Shown piece after piece: positions 18,723-30,892 of a stretch of DNA of 64,000 nucleotides; within the stretch, counting starts at the first letter, position 1; every line of letters starts with the position of its first letter. A program made the position numbers and the translations under genes. Source of the DNA: Candidatus Cloacimonadota bacterium (GTDB lineage: Bacteria > Cloacimonadota > Cloacimonadia > Cloacimonadales > Cloacimonadaceae); contig JAAYWB010000071.1 of NCBI GenBank assembly GCA_012516855.1, positions 1 through 64,000 on the forward strand, given 5' to 3'. The notes beneath the pieces were generated by a model. It did not search any database. It saw only the letters and a program-made list of their open reading frames with translations, and was not told the origin of the DNA.

Positions 18723-21700
18723 TCATTTCTCCACAGCGAATTTTATCCTCTTGTTCTCAGTGCCTTTACGCACCAAGAGAATGTAAACGCCAGATGCAAG
18801 TTTGCCGCTGTCCAGGGCCACATCCCGGCGCAGGATGCCGTTGGCGGGCAGAGAGTGGCTTTGCAGCAGCGAGCCGTTGATGTCATAAAGACGCAGTTCC
18901 ACAGTAGTGTCAAAATTCTCGATGCGGACCCTGAATTGGGAATCGCGCACGGGGTTGGGAAAAACAAAGGCTGTGAAATCCTGAACTGGCGGGATGTCGT
19001 CATACAGGCCGTGGCCTTCAAAGCTGCCATCGCAGCCATTGCGGAACCCATTCCAGTATATTCCGTTGTTCAGCATTCCCAAAGCTTTTCGGTGGATGAA
19101 CAGCCTGCCATCGGCGTCAGTATAATACCAAAAGAGATTGTGGGATTCCAAGTTAATGGGCCCAAACGCGAGCTGTGAGCCGAAAACCGTATCGTCCGTC
19201 AACAGGGATCTCTGCCAGAGGATGCCTTCATCTGCAAGCCAGGCCACATGGCCTCTTTGAGGCACAGGCAGATAGAGCAGCACTTGTGGATAGGATATTA
19301 GCGCGTAAACATGTTCCCGGGCAGAAAAAGTGAGCGGGAAAGCATTGTGGGGATAGCCGCCGAGCAGGGTGCCGTCATGTTTGATGGCGAAGATACGGTT
19401 GCCGCAACCCCAAAAGATAGTGGGGTTGACCGCTCCCTGCATTGAGCTGTCCATATACCAGGCTATTCCCAATTGAGTGGGTTTTTCCGCCTGCGTGTTT
19501 TGGAAAATCATTTGGAGGCGGTTATCCTGAAACTTGTAGGTATTGCCGCTGTTGGCTGTCAGGAAGAGCATTCTGAGCCCGCTCGCCGCTCCGGTGAAAG
19601 TCACAGGTTCATAATCGCCAAAGGGTTCCGGCAGTTCCACCTCGCACTTGATGTAAAGGTCTCGGGTGTCGATAATGTGCAGAAGGTCCTGGCTGAGTGT
19701 CACCAGGTCTGTTCCGTAGCTTCCCAGGCGCAGGATTTGGGGAAGCTGGACCATGTCCTTCACCATGTTGTCCACCACGGAACTCAGGCAGGTGGCGGTG
19801 CTCACGAACACCGTGTCCCTGATTGCGATGGGCGCGGTGCTGATGGGATCGGGAAAGTTGATGGTTTTGCTTTGCAGGGTGTCCTGTGAGAAATCCACGA
19901 TTTCCAGAGTATTGGCGTGGCTGAGAATGAGTTCCTTGTAGCCGTCGCCATCCTGGTCCGCGCTTATCACAGGCTGGTCAAGCGTTTCACCGTCCCAGGC
20001 GAATGGCCCCATCAGGTCGGTCCACCGGCCATCATAGTGGCTTAGCAGAGTGATGGATTGGGGCCCGATCAGAGGTAGATCGAGGTTGCTGTAGCTGGAA
20101 TTGATGAAGGGCCCGGGCAGGAGTTCTGGAATACCGTAGGCAGTGACTGAGGTTTCATCGAACCAACCGCTGTTAACGGTGAGATTCATAATAGCGGCGG
20201 GGTTGCCAATTCCGCTGAGCCAATACTGCGAACCCATTCCCCAGCTGTCTTTGAGGGGTGGTTCTGTGGTGCCGTTCAGAACAGGCTTCCAGGGCTCCAG
20301 ACTCCATGACACGAAGTGACCGGATCCATCCTGCAAGGGCTTTTTCGCGTGATAATACTCATACTGGGTGCCAGTCCAGAACCATGACCATTGGTTGCCG
20401 ATGTCGGGCAGGTTGTCCGCTTCGATGATCTCCACGCCACGCTTGGTGTAGAGTGTGTTTATGGTGTTGTTGGCATAATTGGAGAGGAACTCCCCGTCAT
20501 TGCCGGTTACGCCCTGAGTGTAGATAACATCTTCATTCACACGCCAGACCAAGAGACCGCCACCCACGGAGGAGCCGTCTTCCTTCAGGAAAGAGGGCAG
20601 CAGATAGTCGTATTCATAACTGGGTATGTTTTCGGGATCGTCGATCGGGGTGGGGTAGAGGATAACCCGGCCGTCGTCACTAGCCTTGAGCGCGGTGGCT
20701 CCATCGCCGTCTGGATCAACGCTGCGGTTTTCGACCAATATGTATTCTGTGGGGGATAGGGGAATGCGCAGGATCTGAGGAATGAGTTTGTCTCCCGGTT
20801 GCCGGTGGCTGCTGGCGGCGAGGGGCATTTCTCTGAACAGGTTAACATATTCCACGTCTCTCAACAGGCCCCGGGAGCGGAGGTCGTCTCCGAAAACCAG
20901 TTCGCGGGACCAAGCGCCGGGCAATCCCGGCAAAGCGCCTTCCAGAAGCACATAAGAGCCGTCGTCCAAAATATCCATCAGGATGCCAGAACCGCCGCTG
21001 TCCATGATGTCGAAAACCCCAACCATCGGCTGCCAGGTATGGACGTTGTAGAGGTCCACAAAGCCGAGGGAATGTCCAAATTCGTGGCAGAGCACGGCGT
21101 TTAGGGCACCGTAGCCGCTGTGGATGGTATCCTCGCCTGAGGTTTGGCTGGAAAAATCCTGCGAGATGGTTGAAGGAACGTTACAGGCATGGCTGATGAG
21201 CACAGAGCCGCCATCCACCACGGCTTCCTTGCCTTCGCCCACCCTGATGAAAAAGGAGGGGATGTCGGAAGGAGTGTCGCCATACACGTCATGCTGCCAA
21301 TCGGAACCGGCGTGGATGATCATGTAATGTCCGAAAGCAGAGAAATCCAGTTCCGGCGAAAGGCTGTCCGCCAGTTCGAAAGCGGTTTTGAAATACTCTT
21401 CCATCCGGGAAACGAAAAGTTCGTTATCCGCGCCGGGAGGGTTGTAATAGCCCATGTTTTTAGGCAGGGTGTAAGCCCCAGTTTGTGGCCAGACCTCATA
21501 TTGGAGGTTGTAGGAACCGGCTGAGGCGGCCAGGTAGTAATAGCGTAAAGCTTCCAGATTCTGCTGGAAATAGGCCCGGTCGTGTGGGGGGCTGCCGACG
21601 CTGTAAAGGTAGTTGGGATCAGGTTCCAGCAGGAATTTGCCGTTACCGGTGGTATTGGGGTCGTCGGTGGTTTCAGCCTGGAAATCCACCAGGATCACCA

Positions 21701-21878
21701 GCAACCTTTCAAAGTTTGCGTCCCGGGATTTCGGCGCAGAGGCGGGCTGCTTGTTCAGCAGCTGGGTGTGGGGATGCCGGCGCGGAGGACGGTTTGAAAA
21801 GTGTTTTTGGAGAGTGAGCTTTTCAGCACCGAGCAGGCTGGTAATCGCCAGCAGGAGAAGGAGAAACCTGATTCTCAT
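18723..21878 (-). CDS. Secreted M6-family metalloprotease with C-terminal sorting domain
   Basis: A 1051-residue secreted zinc protease of the M6 (immune-inhibitor-A-like) family. It has a signal peptide (FLLLLLAITSLLGA), a short propeptide, and a catalytic domain with HEFGHSLGFVDLYN (two zinc His, catalytic Glu, third-ligand Asp) near residue 265, then IMDSGG. The middle (about 560-930) looks like beta-propeller/FG-GAP-type repeats. The last ~80 residues (FVFPNPVRDSQFRVRIENF through IKFAVEK) match the type IX secretion/Por C-terminal sorting domain pattern. No type IX machinery lies in this window. The upstream ribosome site is weak. It may degrade external protein for fermentation. Confidence 0.88.
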   Translation of the reverse strand: MRIRFLLLLLAITSLLGAEKLTLQKHFSNRPPRRHPHTQLLNKQPASAPKSRDANFERLLVILVDFQAETTDDPNTTGNGKFLLEPDPNYLYSVGSPPHDRAYFQQNLEALRYYYLAASAGSYNLQYEVWPQTGAYTLPKNMGYYNPPGADNELFVSRMEEYFKTAFELADSLSPELDFSAFGHYMIIHAGSDWQHDVYGDTPSDIPSFFIRVGEGKEAVVDGGSVLISHACNVPSTISQDFSSQTSGEDTIHSGYGALNAVLCHEFGHSLGFVDLYNVHTWQPMVGVFDIMDSGGSGILMDILDDGSYVLLEGALPGLPGAWSRELVFGDDLRSRGLLRDVEYVNLFREMPLAASSHRQPGDKLIPQILRIPLSPTEYILVENRSVDPDGDGATALKASDDGRVILYPTPIDDPENIPSYEYDYLLPSFLKEDGSSVGGGLLVWRVNEDVIYTQGVTGNDGEFLSNYANNTINTLYTKRGVEIIEADNLPDIGNQWSWFWTGTQYEYYHAKKPLQDGSGHFVSWSLEPWKPVLNGTTEPPLKDSWGMGSQYWLSGIGNPAAIMNLTVNSGWFDETSVTAYGIPELLPGPFINSSYSNLDLPLIGPQSITLLSHYDGRWTDLMGPFAWDGETLDQPVISADQDGDGYKELILSHANTLEIVDFSQDTLQSKTINFPDPISTAPIAIRDTVFVSTATCLSSVVDNMVKDMVQLPQILRLGSYGTDLVTLSQDLLHIIDTRDLYIKCEVELPEPFGDYEPVTFTGAASGLRMLFLTANSGNTYKFQDNRLQMIFQNTQAEKPTQLGIAWYMDSSMQGAVNPTIFWGCGNRIFAIKHDGTLLGGYPHNAFPLTFSAREHVYALISYPQVLLYLPVPQRGHVAWLADEGILWQRSLLTDDTVFGSQLAFGPINLESHNLFWYYTDADGRLFIHRKALGMLNNGIYWNGFRNGCDGSFEGHGLYDDIPPVQDFTAFVFPNPVRDSQFRVRIENFDTTVELRLYDINGSLLQSHSLPANGILRRDVALDSGKLASGVYILLVRKGTENKRIKFAVEK

Positions 21879-21944: not shown

Positions 21945-22973
21945 CTAAAACTCGAAGCCGAGGGAAAAGACTTTGTTGAAATCCACAAGCTCGCCGCCGG
22001 GGACCATGCTGAAATCCGCGGTCAGCTTGTATTTTTTGCTGAAAGTGTATTGGATGCCGGCGCCAAAGCTGGGTCCCACCACGCTTCCGGCCGTATCCAG
22101 GAAATAGCCGCCGCGCAGGGAGATCAGGTCGAGATATGTGTACTCAGCGCCGACGCCGTAGATGGTTTCATCCATGTGCTGCCAGCCAGTATTAAACAAC
22201 CTGGTGAGCAGAGGGTCCTCGTTGGCCTGGACTTTGCTGGCTTCCGCTGAGACCAGCAGTTTGTTCATGGGGGCGTTGAGGATCTCGTAAGCGGCGCCCA
22301 GCCTGACGGTCATGGGCAGGGGATCGGATTGCTCCTGGTCGATGTAGGTCACGTTCGGCCCGATGTTTTGGATCACGAGCGAGAGGTTGGTTCCTCTGGT
22401 CAGGAAATCCTGATATTTTGCACCGAGGTCGAAAGCGAAGCCAAAAGCTTTGCCGTCCGGCTCGGTGGGCTGGCCGGGCCCCAGATAGCTGTAAACGAAC
22501 TTGAAGTTCGTGCCGATGCCTAACTGCTGCGGGATCACATCGTAGCTGTAGCCAACGTTTCCGGCAGCTTCAAAGCTATGGAACTCGCCGATAACGTTGT
22601 TGTTTTCGTCGGTTTGGGTCTGCGTGCCCATGTCTAGCAGCGTCAGATGGGCGTTGATGTTTCCAATGCCCTCGAAATACTGGTTGTAGCCCAGGTATTC
22701 ATAATACATATCGTCGAAGCCGGAACCTGCCAGCCAGGGAATGTGTGAACCGGCAAGCTGGGTTTTGCGGTTGAACGCTGTGGCGCCTGGGTTCCACCAG
22801 GGGGCGTAAGCGTCGTCAGCAACGGCGGAATAGGCCCGGCCCATGCCGTTGGCCCGCCCGCCCGGCTCAAAAGTGAGTGAGAGCATCGAAGCCTGGGAAA
22901 TCGCACCCAGGGACAAGGGCAGGCTCAAAATGGTTATCAGCACTGCCAGGATCAGCATATTATACTTGGACAT
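21945..22973 (-). CDS. PorV/UPF0164-like outer-membrane beta-barrel protein
   Basis: A 342-residue predicted outer-membrane barrel of the PorV/PorQ type. The signal peptide (MLILAVLITILSLPLSLGA) precedes GGRANGMGRAYSAVADDAYAPWWNPGATA, the AxADDaxAxxwNPA hallmark, and the protein ends in a terminal aromatic (KVFSLGFEF). In type IX systems PorV-like proteins shuttle cargo to the surface, which fits the sorting-domain protease encoded next, but other PorV-like proteins are plain porins. The frame is open up to 23231 through the tRNA region. ATG 22973 is chosen because GGAGG lies 5 bases upstream and the signal peptide starts there. Confidence 0.8.
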   Translation of the reverse strand: MSKYNMLILAVLITILSLPLSLGAISQASMLSLTFEPGGRANGMGRAYSAVADDAYAPWWNPGATAFNRKTQLAGSHIPWLAGSGFDDMYYEYLGYNQYFEGIGNINAHLTLLDMGTQTQTDENNNVIGEFHSFEAAGNVGYSYDVIPQQLGIGTNFKFVYSYLGPGQPTEPDGKAFGFAFDLGAKYQDFLTRGTNLSLVIQNIGPNVTYIDQEQSDPLPMTVRLGAAYEILNAPMNKLLVSAEASKVQANEDPLLTRLFNTGWQHMDETIYGVGAEYTYLDLISLRGGYFLDTAGSVVGPSFGAGIQYTFSKKYKLTADFSMVPGGELVDFNKVFSLGFEF

Positions 22974-23149
22974 TATACCTCCATTGAGATACTGTAAATG
23001 GCGCGGGCGTGAAATAACCCGTCGCGGTTGATATTGATTTATCGGTTTCAGGGAAAGAAAATACCCCAATAAAAAGTCATTTCGCAGCTGTTCTACAAAA
23101 ATGCAGCCTTTTAGCAAATCTAAATGAGCGTTTTTCTCCCATATTTTTG

Positions 23150-23237
23150 TGGTGCCGAAGGCCGGAATCGAACCGGCACGGACTAAAAGTCCGGTGGATT
23201 TTGAGTCCACTGCGTCTACCTGTTTCACCACTTCGGC
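23150..23237 (-). tRNA. tRNA-Leu, anticodon CAA
   Basis: On the minus strand the acceptor arms GCCGAAG and CTTCGGC pair and enclose a complete class II cloverleaf. It shows a D-arm, an anticodon stem GTGGA/TCCAC with loop CTCAAAA (anticodon CAA, reading UUG), a long variable arm CGGAC-TTTTA-GTCCG, and a T-arm GCCGG-TTCGATT-CCGGC. The discriminator A and CCA tail are encoded. The long variable arm and anticodon both say leucine. Confidence 0.95.
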
Positions 23238-27487: not shown

Positions 27488-29647
27488 TCAGTAGAACAGC
27501 GATAGCCTCAGGTAGCTGCCATAATTGTAAACCACCCAATCTTTTTGAGACCTATCGTACTGTATGTTCAGCCTCAGGTCCAGCGAAATGTTGCGGTAAA
27601 TCCGGAAATTGATGCGGTTTTCGTTCTCCAGGCGGACGCTGCGGTCTTCCAAGCTGAGGGGAAAGAGCAGGTCGAGGGAGGAATTGACCCTGATGAAGTT
27701 AAAGATGTTGACCGCTGAAAGCACCAGAGTGCTTTCGAGACCGTGAAAGGTCTGGTTCGGTTGTTCCCTGTAGATGTCATAAGTCTTGGCGTAATCGATG
27801 TTATGGCCGGGTTTGCTTTCACTGTATTTGTAAAAACCATCGTTTACCTCCTGCTGCCAGCCATAACCGAAGCGCAGGCTGAGAGAAGCTTGAGGGCCAA
27901 AAACGAGGCGGTATGTGATTCCCGTTCCCTCCTTCAGGCGCATGGGGAAGAAGGGGTTTTTGGACTTCAGCCGGTTCTGGCTGGTCAGCACCGCCACGGT
28001 GTCGTTCTCCGCGGAGATGAGGATAAGGTCCTTCAACTTGGAGAAATAAGCGTATTCCCTAAAGAAACGGGTCTGCACGTCGCCACGGGCGTAGAAGGAA
28101 AAATTGCGCAGAGAGCGGCTGCTTTCCCAAGGCGTCAGCAGCAGGACGTTTTTCAGGGAATAGGCGTCGGCACTGATGCGCAGATCGGAAACATTGGAAC
28201 TGCTAAGGCCCAAATCATAGATGCTGCGCAGGGTGTAGAGGGTTAAAGGGAAGGTTGCGTCCACCGAGTTTTCCAGTTGCCCGGTTACGGTGATGCCTAC
28301 CAGGGGATGGGCGGGGTCCGCTTCGTTGTTCCCGGCCAGGCTCAGATTTCCGTGCATGGCGCCTTTATGAACCACAGGCCGGTCCAGGACAACAGGTTCC
28401 TCACCCAAAACTCCTGCCCCCAACAGCATGTTACCTTCTCCGGAAGGGTCAACCACCAGGGTCAGGACCCGGCTGTCGCCTTTGGCCAGATCGATAGTGG
28501 TGAAGTCCTCCAGTTGGGTCCAGGAGCCGCCGCCCAGTTTGACCATGTAGGTGCCGGGGGGAAGGATCCAAACCTTGTTTGGCTGGCCCAGGTCGTCATC
28601 GCCGATACTGGTTCCGGGGCCAAGGAGATAGTATTCGAATTTGCCGGTTTCCTTTACCCAGATGTCATAGGAAAGGCGCACCCGGTTGTTTTTTCCGTCG
28701 ATGATTTTGACGCTCAGTTCTGCCCATTGCCCGCTCACCACGGTGCGCATCTTGGGCAGAACCTCCACTTCCAGCGATATGTTCTGGCTTTCGCCGATGG
28801 TGACGCTGTATCTGCCCGGGGGGAGGGTAAGCTCCTTGTTGAATTCTCCGTCATTGCGGAAAACATCGTTGTCCAGGCCAAGGATGTTGTAGCGGATTAG
28901 GTCGTCGGTGTCAGTGCCGAGAATGAGCAGCAGTTCACCGTCAGAACCGGCCATGTTTTCCGGGGGAATATCATCCAGCGTGTAGAGGTCTTGGCCTGCT
29001 GTTTCGACGGTTTCCAGGGTCACCTGGTCCTGTCCACCGCTCAGGAAAGACCTGCATTTGGTCGCGAATACGTCAGTTTCATTCATAAGCAGTTCGTTGT
29101 AGCTTTGGATCAGATAGACCATGCTGGGGTCGGGCAGGGGTTTGTAGCGCTCCGCCTTATAGCTGAGCAGGATCTTCTGAGAGTCGGAATCCCGTAGGAA
29201 GAACTCCATCCGTAAATAGGCGCGGGCATCCTCTGCCTCGATCTTTTCCAGGCTCAGAATCTTAGTCTCTAAAAAGTAGTCGGGATCGAATTCTCCTGTG
29301 GTGCGGTCAACCTGGCTGAAGATGCGGTAGGCGCGTAGCCTTTGCACGATCATGTCTGGAATGGCGTCGTTGAGCCGGCTGGCCCAAAGATGATCGGGCA
29401 GATAGCGCACCCGGGAGAAGTTTTCTTTAACCACCAGCTGGCTTTTGCTGTAAGCCCGGCTCACTTCCGCATCCAGCACCTCCAGGGATTTGGGGAAGGG
29501 TCGGGACATGCGCAGAGCGGGGTTTTCGGTTCCCTCCCTGTATTCCAGCACATAGTAGTTTGGACGCAGCCGCTCAGGATTCCAGGCGCAGCCAGTCACG
29601 ACCATCGCGACGGCAAGGATGCCCAGCCACAAACGTTTCTTGTTCAC
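27488..29647 (-). CDS. Auxiliary (PqiC-like) lipoprotein fused to a putative outer-membrane barrel
   Basis: A 719-residue lipoprotein with three parts. It begins with a lipobox (VVTGCAW). Residues ~25-210 resemble the ABC-transport auxiliary/PqiC-YmbA domain (YYVLEYREG...SLEVLDAEVSRAY...MIVQRLRAYRIF). The middle (~240-400) has two LPPGxYxVxxG beta-sandwich-like repeats. The C-terminal ~280 residues are rich in alternating aromatic/polar beta strands (LVFGPQASLSLRFGYGWQQE) and end in SYLRLSLFY, as outer-membrane barrels do. The start is GTG at 29647 with GGGAG upstream. Its place between the MCE protein and the permease points to the outer-membrane end of the lipid conduit. The barrel call is inferred. 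Confidence 0.7.
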   Translation of the reverse strand: MNKKRLWLGILAVAMVVTGCAWNPERLRPNYYVLEYREGTENPALRMSRPFPKSLEVLDAEVSRAYSKSQLVVKENFSRVRYLPDHLWASRLNDAIPDMIVQRLRAYRIFSQVDRTTGEFDPDYFLETKILSLEKIEAEDARAYLRMEFFLRDSDSQKILLSYKAERYKPLPDPSMVYLIQSYNELLMNETDVFATKCRSFLSGGQDQVTLETVETAGQDLYTLDDIPPENMAGSDGELLLILGTDTDDLIRYNILGLDNDVFRNDGEFNKELTLPPGRYSVTIGESQNISLEVEVLPKMRTVVSGQWAELSVKIIDGKNNRVRLSYDIWVKETGKFEYYLLGPGTSIGDDDLGQPNKVWILPPGTYMVKLGGGSWTQLEDFTTIDLAKGDSRVLTLVVDPSGEGNMLLGAGVLGEEPVVLDRPVVHKGAMHGNLSLAGNNEADPAHPLVGITVTGQLENSVDATFPLTLYTLRSIYDLGLSSSNVSDLRISADAYSLKNVLLLTPWESSRSLRNFSFYARGDVQTRFFREYAYFSKLKDLILISAENDTVAVLTSQNRLKSKNPFFPMRLKEGTGITYRLVFGPQASLSLRFGYGWQQEVNDGFYKYSESKPGHNIDYAKTYDIYREQPNQTFHGLESTLVLSAVNIFNFIRVNSSLDLLFPLSLEDRSVRLENENRINFRIYRNISLDLRLNIQYDRSQKDWVVYNYGSYLRLSLFY

Positions 29648-29659
29648 AAGCGTCTCCCT

Positions 29660-30892
29660 TTAATTTCCCCGCAGGATCAGGGCGGGTTGGTCAGATATTT
29701 GCCGGGCGAAATCATTGAGGTTTTCGCTGGCTTCGCGCAGGTTTTCCAGGGTTTCATTCAGATTTACCCGGTTGCGGATGAGGGTCCGGTCGATATTGGT
29801 TATCAGGTTTCCGGCTTTGTGCACTGTTACTGTCAGTTCCTCGGCCAGGCCGGAGATATTGGCCTCATTGAGTTTGGCTGTGAGGGTGTTTATATTGGCT
29901 ACCAGAGCGTCCATTTCAGCCGAAGAGAGGATTTGGTTCACGCGGTCCATGGCTGTGTTGATCTTCAGGCTAACCTTGGCGATGTCCCTGGTGGTCATCA
30001 GGATGAGGGAATCGGAACTGGCGCCGATCTTTCCCAGTTGCAGCCTGGTATCGTTGAGCAGCAGATTGGTTGAGTGATTGATCTCAGCGATGCTTTTATC
30101 GAGGCTGGCGCTGATGGAAGCCAGTTGTTTGCTCAGATCGTCGGTAAGGGCTTCCAGGCTGGAGGAGCTGCGGTCGCCGATCCTTTGGATGTTTTGGGAA
30201 GCCACGGTGGATATGCTGTCCAGGTTCGCGGTCAGGTTGTCCGCTATGCGGTCAAAACTTCCTCCCGCGCCCTCCGTGAAACCCTGGGCGGATTGGACGA
30301 TCCGGCCCAGGCTGTTCAGGGTTGAGGAAAGTTTGGTGCGGGTTTCGATGATCAGGCTGTTGGTTTCAGCAAGGATGGAAGAGAGGTTGGCCTGGTTTTC
30401 CTCCGCTGTCAGCTGGTCCAGGTTAGAGGCGATGCGGTCCACTTTGTCCACGACGGAAACAGCCTTGCCGGAAATCTCGTCAAGCTCAGTGGCGCCGGTT
30501 TTGATGAAGCTGCCGGGTTTCAGGTTTTTCGCCCGATTGGTTCCGCCGCGAACCTCCACCGCTTTGGTGCCGGTGATGCCCACATACACCAGAACCGCCT
30601 CGCTATCCTCTTTCAGCGGGGTTCCGGGGTCGATGCTCAGTGTTAGGATCACGCTCTGAACATCCTTGGGATCGATCGCCACCTTGTCCACGGTGCCGAT
30701 GGGTATGCCTCTGTAATAGACTGAGGCACCGGCCTGGAGGCCGAATACCGAATGGTTGGTGAAGCGCAGAAAGTAGGTTTCACGCTTGAGTGTGAGCTGT
30801 TTGCCGATCACCAGCGCGAAAAACAGGCCGATCAGGGCGATGCCGGTCAGCACAAAGATGCCCAGTCTGATCCGGGCTGATTTGGCAGCCAT
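29660..30892 (-). CDS. MCE-domain protein with long helical extension (MlaD/PqiB-type)
   Basis: Membrane-anchored periplasmic lipid-binding subunit (410 residues). It has one N-terminal transmembrane helix (LGIFVLTGIALIGLFFALVI), then a single MCE domain (about 38-115, including VYYRGIPIGTVDKVAI). About 280 residues of heptad-like, Ser/Asn/Leu-rich helix follow, ending in ISDQPALILRGN. Long helices of this sort form needles or tunnels across the periplasm in PqiB-type proteins. ATG 30892 has GGGAGG upstream. It is 11 bases after the UDP-glucose pyrophosphorylase stop. It should work with the adjacent lipoprotein, permease and ATPase. Confidence 0.9.
   Translation of the reverse strand: MAAKSARIRLGIFVLTGIALIGLFFALVIGKQLTLKRETYFLRFTNHSVFGLQAGASVYYRGIPIGTVDKVAIDPKDVQSVILTLSIDPGTPLKEDSEAVLVYVGITGTKAVEVRGGTNRAKNLKPGSFIKTGATELDEISGKAVSVVDKVDRIASNLDQLTAEENQANLSSILAETNSLIIETRTKLSSTLNSLGRIVQSAQGFTEGAGGSFDRIADNLTANLDSISTVASQNIQRIGDRSSSSLEALTDDLSKQLASISASLDKSIAEINHSTNLLLNDTRLQLGKIGASSDSLILMTTRDIAKVSLKINTAMDRVNQILSSAEMDALVANINTLTAKLNEANISGLAEELTVTVHKAGNLITNIDRTLIRNRVNLNETLENLREASENLNDFARQISDQPALILRGN

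Follow-up and report, generated by a model that had tools for sequence, protein, structure and literature searches.

A PqiC-like lipoprotein joined to a predicted outer-membrane β-barrel in an Mpc-type MCE operon of Cloacimonadota

Results

Organization of the locus

The 64,000-nucleotide stretch of Candidatus Cloacimonadota DNA analysed here (the window) carries on its reverse strand an operon of four genes, encoding an MCE protein, a lipoprotein fused to a predicted outer-membrane barrel, a STAS-MlaE permease and an MlaF-like ABC ATPase (Table 1). The genes are closely spaced: the fusion gene starts with GTG 12 bases past the MCE gene, runs through 719 codons in an unbroken frame and ends 3 bases short of the permease gene, which overlaps the ATPase gene by 4 bases. 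This order (MCE, lipoprotein::barrel, STAS-MlaE, ATPase) was invariant in all loci examined. The first-pass annotation of the sequence had taken the permease for a STAS-MlaE fusion and had assigned the operon a single MCE protein with a long helix. Both assignments held up: the permease matches PF02405 and its STAS part, though weakly matched in the window protein, is detected in 8–9 of 14 homologues, and the MCE protein has one PF02470 domain followed by a long helical C-terminal region.

Table 1. Features of the operon and of the fusion protein in the window.
Feature	Position	Strand	Basis
MCE (MlaD-type) protein, 410 aa, one MCE domain and long C-terminal helical region	29660..30892	(-)	PF02470, aa 40-116, E 9.2e-14
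Ribosome-binding site of the fusion gene, AAGGGAG	29654..29660	(-)	
PqiC-like lipoprotein::outer-membrane barrel fusion (barrel predicted), 719 aa	27488..29647	(-)	ORF, profile matches, AlphaFold
Lipoprotein signal peptide, aa 1-20, lipobox VTGC, predicted acylated Cys20	29588..29647	(-)	Sequence; Cys in homologues
PqiC-like domain (ABC_trans_aux, PF03886), aa 24-202	29042..29578	(-)	Profile E 5.7e-12; fold match 2iqi, 8q2d
Low-confidence linker, aa 203-236, at the gene-boundary position of split relatives	28940..29041	(-)	pLDDT; split junction
Two beta modules with LPPGxY motifs, aa 237-402	28442..28939	(-)	Sequence, AlphaFold
Predicted 14-stranded outer-membrane beta-barrel, aa 425-719, C-terminus YLRLSLFY	27491..28375	(-)	AlphaFold, Foldseek, DUF481/DUF3078, amphipathicity
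STAS-MlaE fusion permease, 359 aa	26405..27484	(-)	PF02405, E 5.1e-71
MlaF-like ABC ATPase, 247 aa	25665..26408	(-)	PF00005, E 3.2e-30

Profile scanning of the MCE protein returned no barrel family, only the MlaD domain and low-confidence helical or coiled-coil-like matches, so the Veillonella-type layout with the barrel on MlaD appears not to apply here. Neither MlaA nor MlaC was found in the window's own genome (98.8% complete) by searches that detected both positive controls, E. coli and Caulobacter, and the absence of an MlaA homologue sets this system apart from the MlaA-OmpC type of outer-membrane end. The same genome encodes exactly one PF03886 protein and two MCE proteins. The MCE protein of the operon is mostly 355–454 aa long in the window's family (L001–L030) and 283–325 aa in most other lineages (L031–L050, L099–L121), so the needle of the former may be longer by as many as about 100 residues per subunit.

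The second MCE protein of the genome (300 aa; L094:8169-9071, contig 59) has no adjoining ABC genes, and the gene 3′ of its own encodes a protein of 1007 aa that begins like a peptidase and ends like a barrel. The fusion operon is missing from some genomes of the same genus (L137–L141, from G003, G001, G011, G009 and G006); at these loci a STAS-less MlaE (249–250 aa) is encoded directly 3′ of a dnaB-like gene and is followed by a lipoprotein-like gene of about 350–360 aa. Elsewhere in the window, a tRNA-Leu(caa) at 23150-23237(-) overlaps the mechanical start of a 428-aa ORF (21945-23231), whose true start must therefore lie further in, and 18723-21878 encodes a putative secreted protein of 1051 aa that has the sequence HEFGH, a metalloprotease motif of the HExxH type, and an apparent C-terminal sorting domain.

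A lipoprotein half of the PqiC family

The fusion is confirmed as genuine, its barrel part being a prediction. Full-length homologues of the 719-aa protein are known at 26–85% identity, ruling out a chance or assembly join, and an assembly or frameshift artefact is excluded by about 86 uninterrupted homologues. No NCBIfam model is matched by the window protein itself, and one homologue matches the NCBIfam pqiC model at 1e-4. From its N-terminus the protein comprises a lipobox, a PqiC-like domain, a linker, two beta modules and the predicted 14-stranded barrel.

A lipobox, a PqiC/ABC-auxiliary N-domain and two LPPGxYxV beta modules had been proposed at first pass, and each is borne out. Cys20 of the VTGC lipobox is invariant across 22 divergent homologues. 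PF03886 matches aa 47–187 with 46 bits against a curated cut-off of 26 and is present in 22 of the 22 homologues (E<=0.01). No PDB entry passed the threshold when the full alignment was used as a profile (PqiC, E 0.46; XCC0632, E 0.72), so that a fold search was needed to relate the domain to PqiC. The modelled N-domain superimposed on solved structures with TM-scores, taken over the target, of 0.83–0.85, including 0.85 for E. coli PqiC (8q2d) and 0.84 for XCC0632 (2iqi). Between this domain and the modules, pLDDT falls below 50 at aa 206–233. The LPPGxY motifs were located at aa ~275–284 and ~363–371, and in relatives whose halves are encoded separately the beta modules stay with the barrel, not with the lipoprotein.

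The C-terminal half is predicted to be an outer-membrane barrel

The full-length AlphaFold model, computed from 20 sequences, has a mean pLDDT of 79.3 and places long strands at aa 425–718; its pTM of 0.48 means that the relative arrangement of the domains is not given by the model. Among the Foldseek matches listed for its C-terminal part were solved outer-membrane barrels only (autotransporter, OmpG and FapF). When aa 404–719 were modelled alone, pLDDT was 81.3 and pTM 0.71, and the model consisted of 14 main antiparallel strands and a long loop hairpin. This model gave 127 PDB matches at E<=0.001, and all 50 matches listed were outer-membrane barrels; TM-scores reached at most 0.52 with rmsd of 8–24, which leaves strand register and barrel closure uncertain. 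The barrel with an aromatic end proposed by the first-pass annotation is thus predicted by structure modelling also, and the last residue of the protein is Y.

Sequence properties point the same way. The alternating-face hydrophobicity of the barrel strands, averaged over the 22 homologues, was 1.87 against 1.19 in shuffled sequences, a value reached by 0 of 500 shuffles; the soluble beta modules gave 0.80 against 0.76, with 190 of 500 shuffles reaching it, in a control that has less power because the strands are shorter. The window protein matches DUF481 at E 0.0035, below the cut-off, and among the 22 homologues the C-terminal region matches DUF481 in 17 (best 9e-12) and DUF3078 in 12 (best 2.5e-9), both of which we take to be outer-membrane barrel families. 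A profile of the C-terminal half also finds stand-alone barrel-type proteins of 281–297 aa elsewhere in the same genomes; two of these were scanned and both match DUF3078 over the cut-off.

Fused, split and partial forms

Matches to the profile were found in 113 of 125 Candidatus Cloacimonadota genomes, a few of them (e.g. G001 and G003) through a stand-alone barrel only, and in about 86 genomes of the phylum the whole profile lies in one uninterrupted frame. Basal Cloacimonadales, sister families and several other lineages encode the two halves in neighbouring genes of their own, one for a lipoprotein of 200–264 aa and one for a barrel protein of ~505–617 aa. In two Cloacimonadales genomes (G043 and G041; L047, L048) and in sister families f12 and f13 (L099–L110) this pair, of 200–217 aa and 515–540 aa, lies between the MCE and STAS-MlaE genes. 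The first-pass annotation had advised a search for the architecture in other phyla, and the same halves do occur outside Cloacimonadota as adjacent genes, at L114–L118, L121 and L123 and in almost every matching genome of one more family. At least five families beyond the phylum keep them side by side, flanked by MCE and STAS-MlaE.

A simple pattern finds the lipobox in 20 of 21 split lipoproteins. A hydrophobic signal sequence lies near the N-terminus of 21 of 22 separate barrel proteins, the exception being that of L121, whose start has probably been called too late, and 20 of the 22 end in F, Y or L; an own signal peptide and such an end are as expected for a Bam-inserted protein. Partial forms exist as well: L126–L133 have the lipoprotein without a barrel, and L124 and L125 have the barrel half (629–659 aa) without a PqiC-like lipoprotein, the L125 copy lying directly 3′ of an MCE gene. 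Neither half, therefore, strictly needs the other.

Origin of the fused gene

On a midpoint-rooted tree of the C-terminal half, the distribution of fused and split states requires three changes. Two split forms, L047 and L048, arise among the early-branching lineages of Cloacimonadales, whose other members are fused; a fused 777-aa gene with a lipobox (L122, G436) falls far outside. A single origin of all fused genes was rejected, with p-AU 0.0011 for all fused rows as one clade; one fused clade within Cloacimonadales was rejected too, with p-AU 1e-47, this clade having been named after the tree was seen. The linker of the fused L050 protein retains LTEEQIQTWL...EQLIRE, corresponding to LTEEQLKTWL...EQLDRE, which follows the signal peptide of the separate L048 barrel protein; the linker thus preserves a former barrel-protein N-terminus, as would be left if the two genes were joined in frame and the signal peptide was lost. 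Most likely the split pair is ancestral and the fused form derived, by at least two and probably three joinings. A single fusion followed by fission in L047 and L048 is less likely, as the separate barrel gene would have had to regain a signal peptide. Another fused copy, of 705 aa (L112), is nested within family f9 in a genome (G117) placed in f13, a family whose other copies are split; its placement is a transfer or a mis-binned contig.

Since the fusion most likely arose from a split operon pair, it is the smaller part of the finding; the larger part is the association of a PqiC-like lipoprotein with a dedicated barrel in an Mpc-type operon.

Discussion

Proposed mechanism

The operon has the composition of the Mpc type: an ABC permease, an ATPase, one MCE needle protein and a PqiC-like lipoprotein, with MlaA and MlaC absent. 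We favour, with a probability of roughly 0.7, the reading that it encodes a Mla-Pqi hybrid (Mpc-type) phospholipid transporter whose PqiC-like dock has a barrel partner, fused to it in Cloacimonadales, and whose barrels probably anchor the needle. The ATPase and the STAS-MlaE permease would make up the inner-membrane part, and across the periplasm the MCE protein would form a ring and an α-helical needle, as in PqiB, Mce1 and MpcD. By analogy with PqiC, the tip of the needle would dock in an oligomeric ring of PqiC-like domains, held to the outer membrane through the acyl chain on Cys20. Each ring subunit would bear, via the flexible linker and the two beta modules, its own 14-stranded barrel inserted in the outer membrane, and the barrels would most likely fasten ring and needle to that membrane and so keep the needle tip at the bilayer, in a role like that proposed for the MlaD barrel in Veillonella and for MlaA-OmpC in E. 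coli. Outer-membrane insertion, ring stoichiometry, docking, the phospholipid substrate and the role of the barrel are all drawn from prediction and analogy. The first-pass annotation had suggested that the fusion could place the outer-membrane exit on the lipoprotein's own chain and that the four genes would span the envelope. Its interpretation is partly supported: of the two conditions named as refuting it, a predicted structure lacking a barrel and an N-domain unlike the PqiC/ABC-auxiliary family, neither held, and a lipid exit and a single envelope-spanning complex stand as proposals.

The 1:1 fusion implies as many barrels as ring subunits. By a rough estimate, 6–8 small barrels would fit geometrically round a ring of the width of PqiC's, about 100 Å across. 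Against this layout we count the mismatch between a PqiC octamer and an MCE hexamer, and the fact that rings of 6–8 barrels are not known to have been described; a ring of barrels was judged unlikely for Veillonella (PMC10665443).

Other readings of the barrel

The barrel might instead be a lipid gate like that of LptD-LptE for LPS: the needle would deliver or collect phospholipid at the periplasmic mouth, and the barrel would open sideways towards the outer leaflet. We regard this as possible but unlikely. LptE acts within the barrel of LptD, and the PelB barrel has PelC as its partner, so the fold of PqiC-type lipoproteins has been paired with conducting barrels before. The predicted 14 strands, wider than the 10 of Veillonella MlaD, equal the count of the FadL barrel, and the barrel belongs to a lipid operon across the phylum. 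Dali places PqiC close to LptE and PelC (PMC10897342). However, the best Foldseek barrels are of the autotransporter, FapF and OmpG types, not LptD, and operons with the lipoprotein but no barrel occur. A wider form of the proposal is tentative and likewise unlikely: that a PqiC-like lipoprotein with a 14-stranded barrel is a general outer-membrane end of MCE systems, in Cloacimonadota and in several lineages with barrel-less MCE proteins, giving lateral access to the outer leaflet as a counterpart of LptD-LptE.

It is improbable that the system imports some other hydrophobic substrate (fatty acids, hydrocarbons or sterol-like lipids) with the barrel as entry port. Mycobacterial MCE systems are implicated in fatty acid and cholesterol transport (PMC9882608), and Foldseek gave weak FadL, TodX and CymD matches, but the FadL-type matches have an rmsd of at least about 20 with TM-scores near 0.2–0.3, and the four-gene set equals that of Brucella Mpc, which is described as a lipid transporter of the Mla/Pqi type (PMC12436622). 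The C-terminal half might also be a beta protein that is soluble in the periplasm and only resembles a barrel, as the sub-cut-off DUF481 match of the window protein and the modest TM-scores would allow; this is very improbable given the even number of strands, their amphipathicity (unlike the soluble modules), the separate export signal and C-terminal aromatic residue of split relatives and the homology to stand-alone DUF3078 proteins.

Comparison with known systems

The way in which an MCE needle terminates at the outer membrane is an open question: PqiC rings the tip only, and in Veillonella the barrel is on MlaD. This locus presents a third layout, a predicted barrel on the PqiC-like dock, and where the needle protein has no barrel the fusion is a candidate, open to test, for the outer-membrane end that is missing. 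The natural series of lipoprotein alone, lipoprotein with barrel gene and fused protein makes the partnership testable with small separate proteins, and the fused form, by fixing one barrel per ring subunit, offers a strong and checkable structural prediction. MlaD-barrel fusions (PMC10665443) and DUF330-MCE gene fusions, which are not barrel fusions (PMC5561183), are already known; the new element is a PqiC-like lipoprotein with a barrel, and no report of such a fusion or operon pair was found in the published open-access literature searched.

One close counterpart is the MpcEFDA operon of Brucella abortus, whose four components co-purify (PMC12436622). It, too, is a single operon for MlaE, MlaF, a needle MlaD and a PqiC-like lipoprotein that lacks MlaC and MlaA, but MpcA is described as barrel-less (PMC12436622). 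In the present systems the same gene or its neighbour encodes a predicted barrel, and the permease is a STAS-MlaE fusion. E. coli PqiABC shares the PqiC fold, the lipobox and an MCE needle partner in the same operon (PMC10897342, 8Q2C), and the PqiC octamer, with a pore of about 40 Å, fits and receives the PqiB needle (PMC10897342); PqiC, however, has 187 aa and no barrel, PqiA is no ABC permease and PqiB has three MCE domains (PMC10897342). The transenvelope MlaD of Veillonella parvula also belongs to a minimal MCE/ABC system with an outer-membrane barrel (predicted in our case) and without MlaA or MlaC, but its barrel is 10-stranded and sits on MlaD, whereas ours is predicted to be 14-stranded and sits on the PqiC-like lipoprotein (PMC10665443); MlaD barrels are reported to be completely absent from the FCB and PVC groups (PMC10665443). 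DUF3078 and DUF481 proteins are sequence relatives of the barrel part, but they are stand-alone proteins that have neither a lipobox nor a PqiC-like domain and do not belong to an MCE operon. LptE-LptD and PelC-PelB resemble the present pair in that a lipoprotein of the PqiC fold (fold relation, PMC10897342) partners a conducting outer-membrane barrel; they differ in being separate polypeptides, in handling LPS and Pel polysaccharide and in having no MCE needle.
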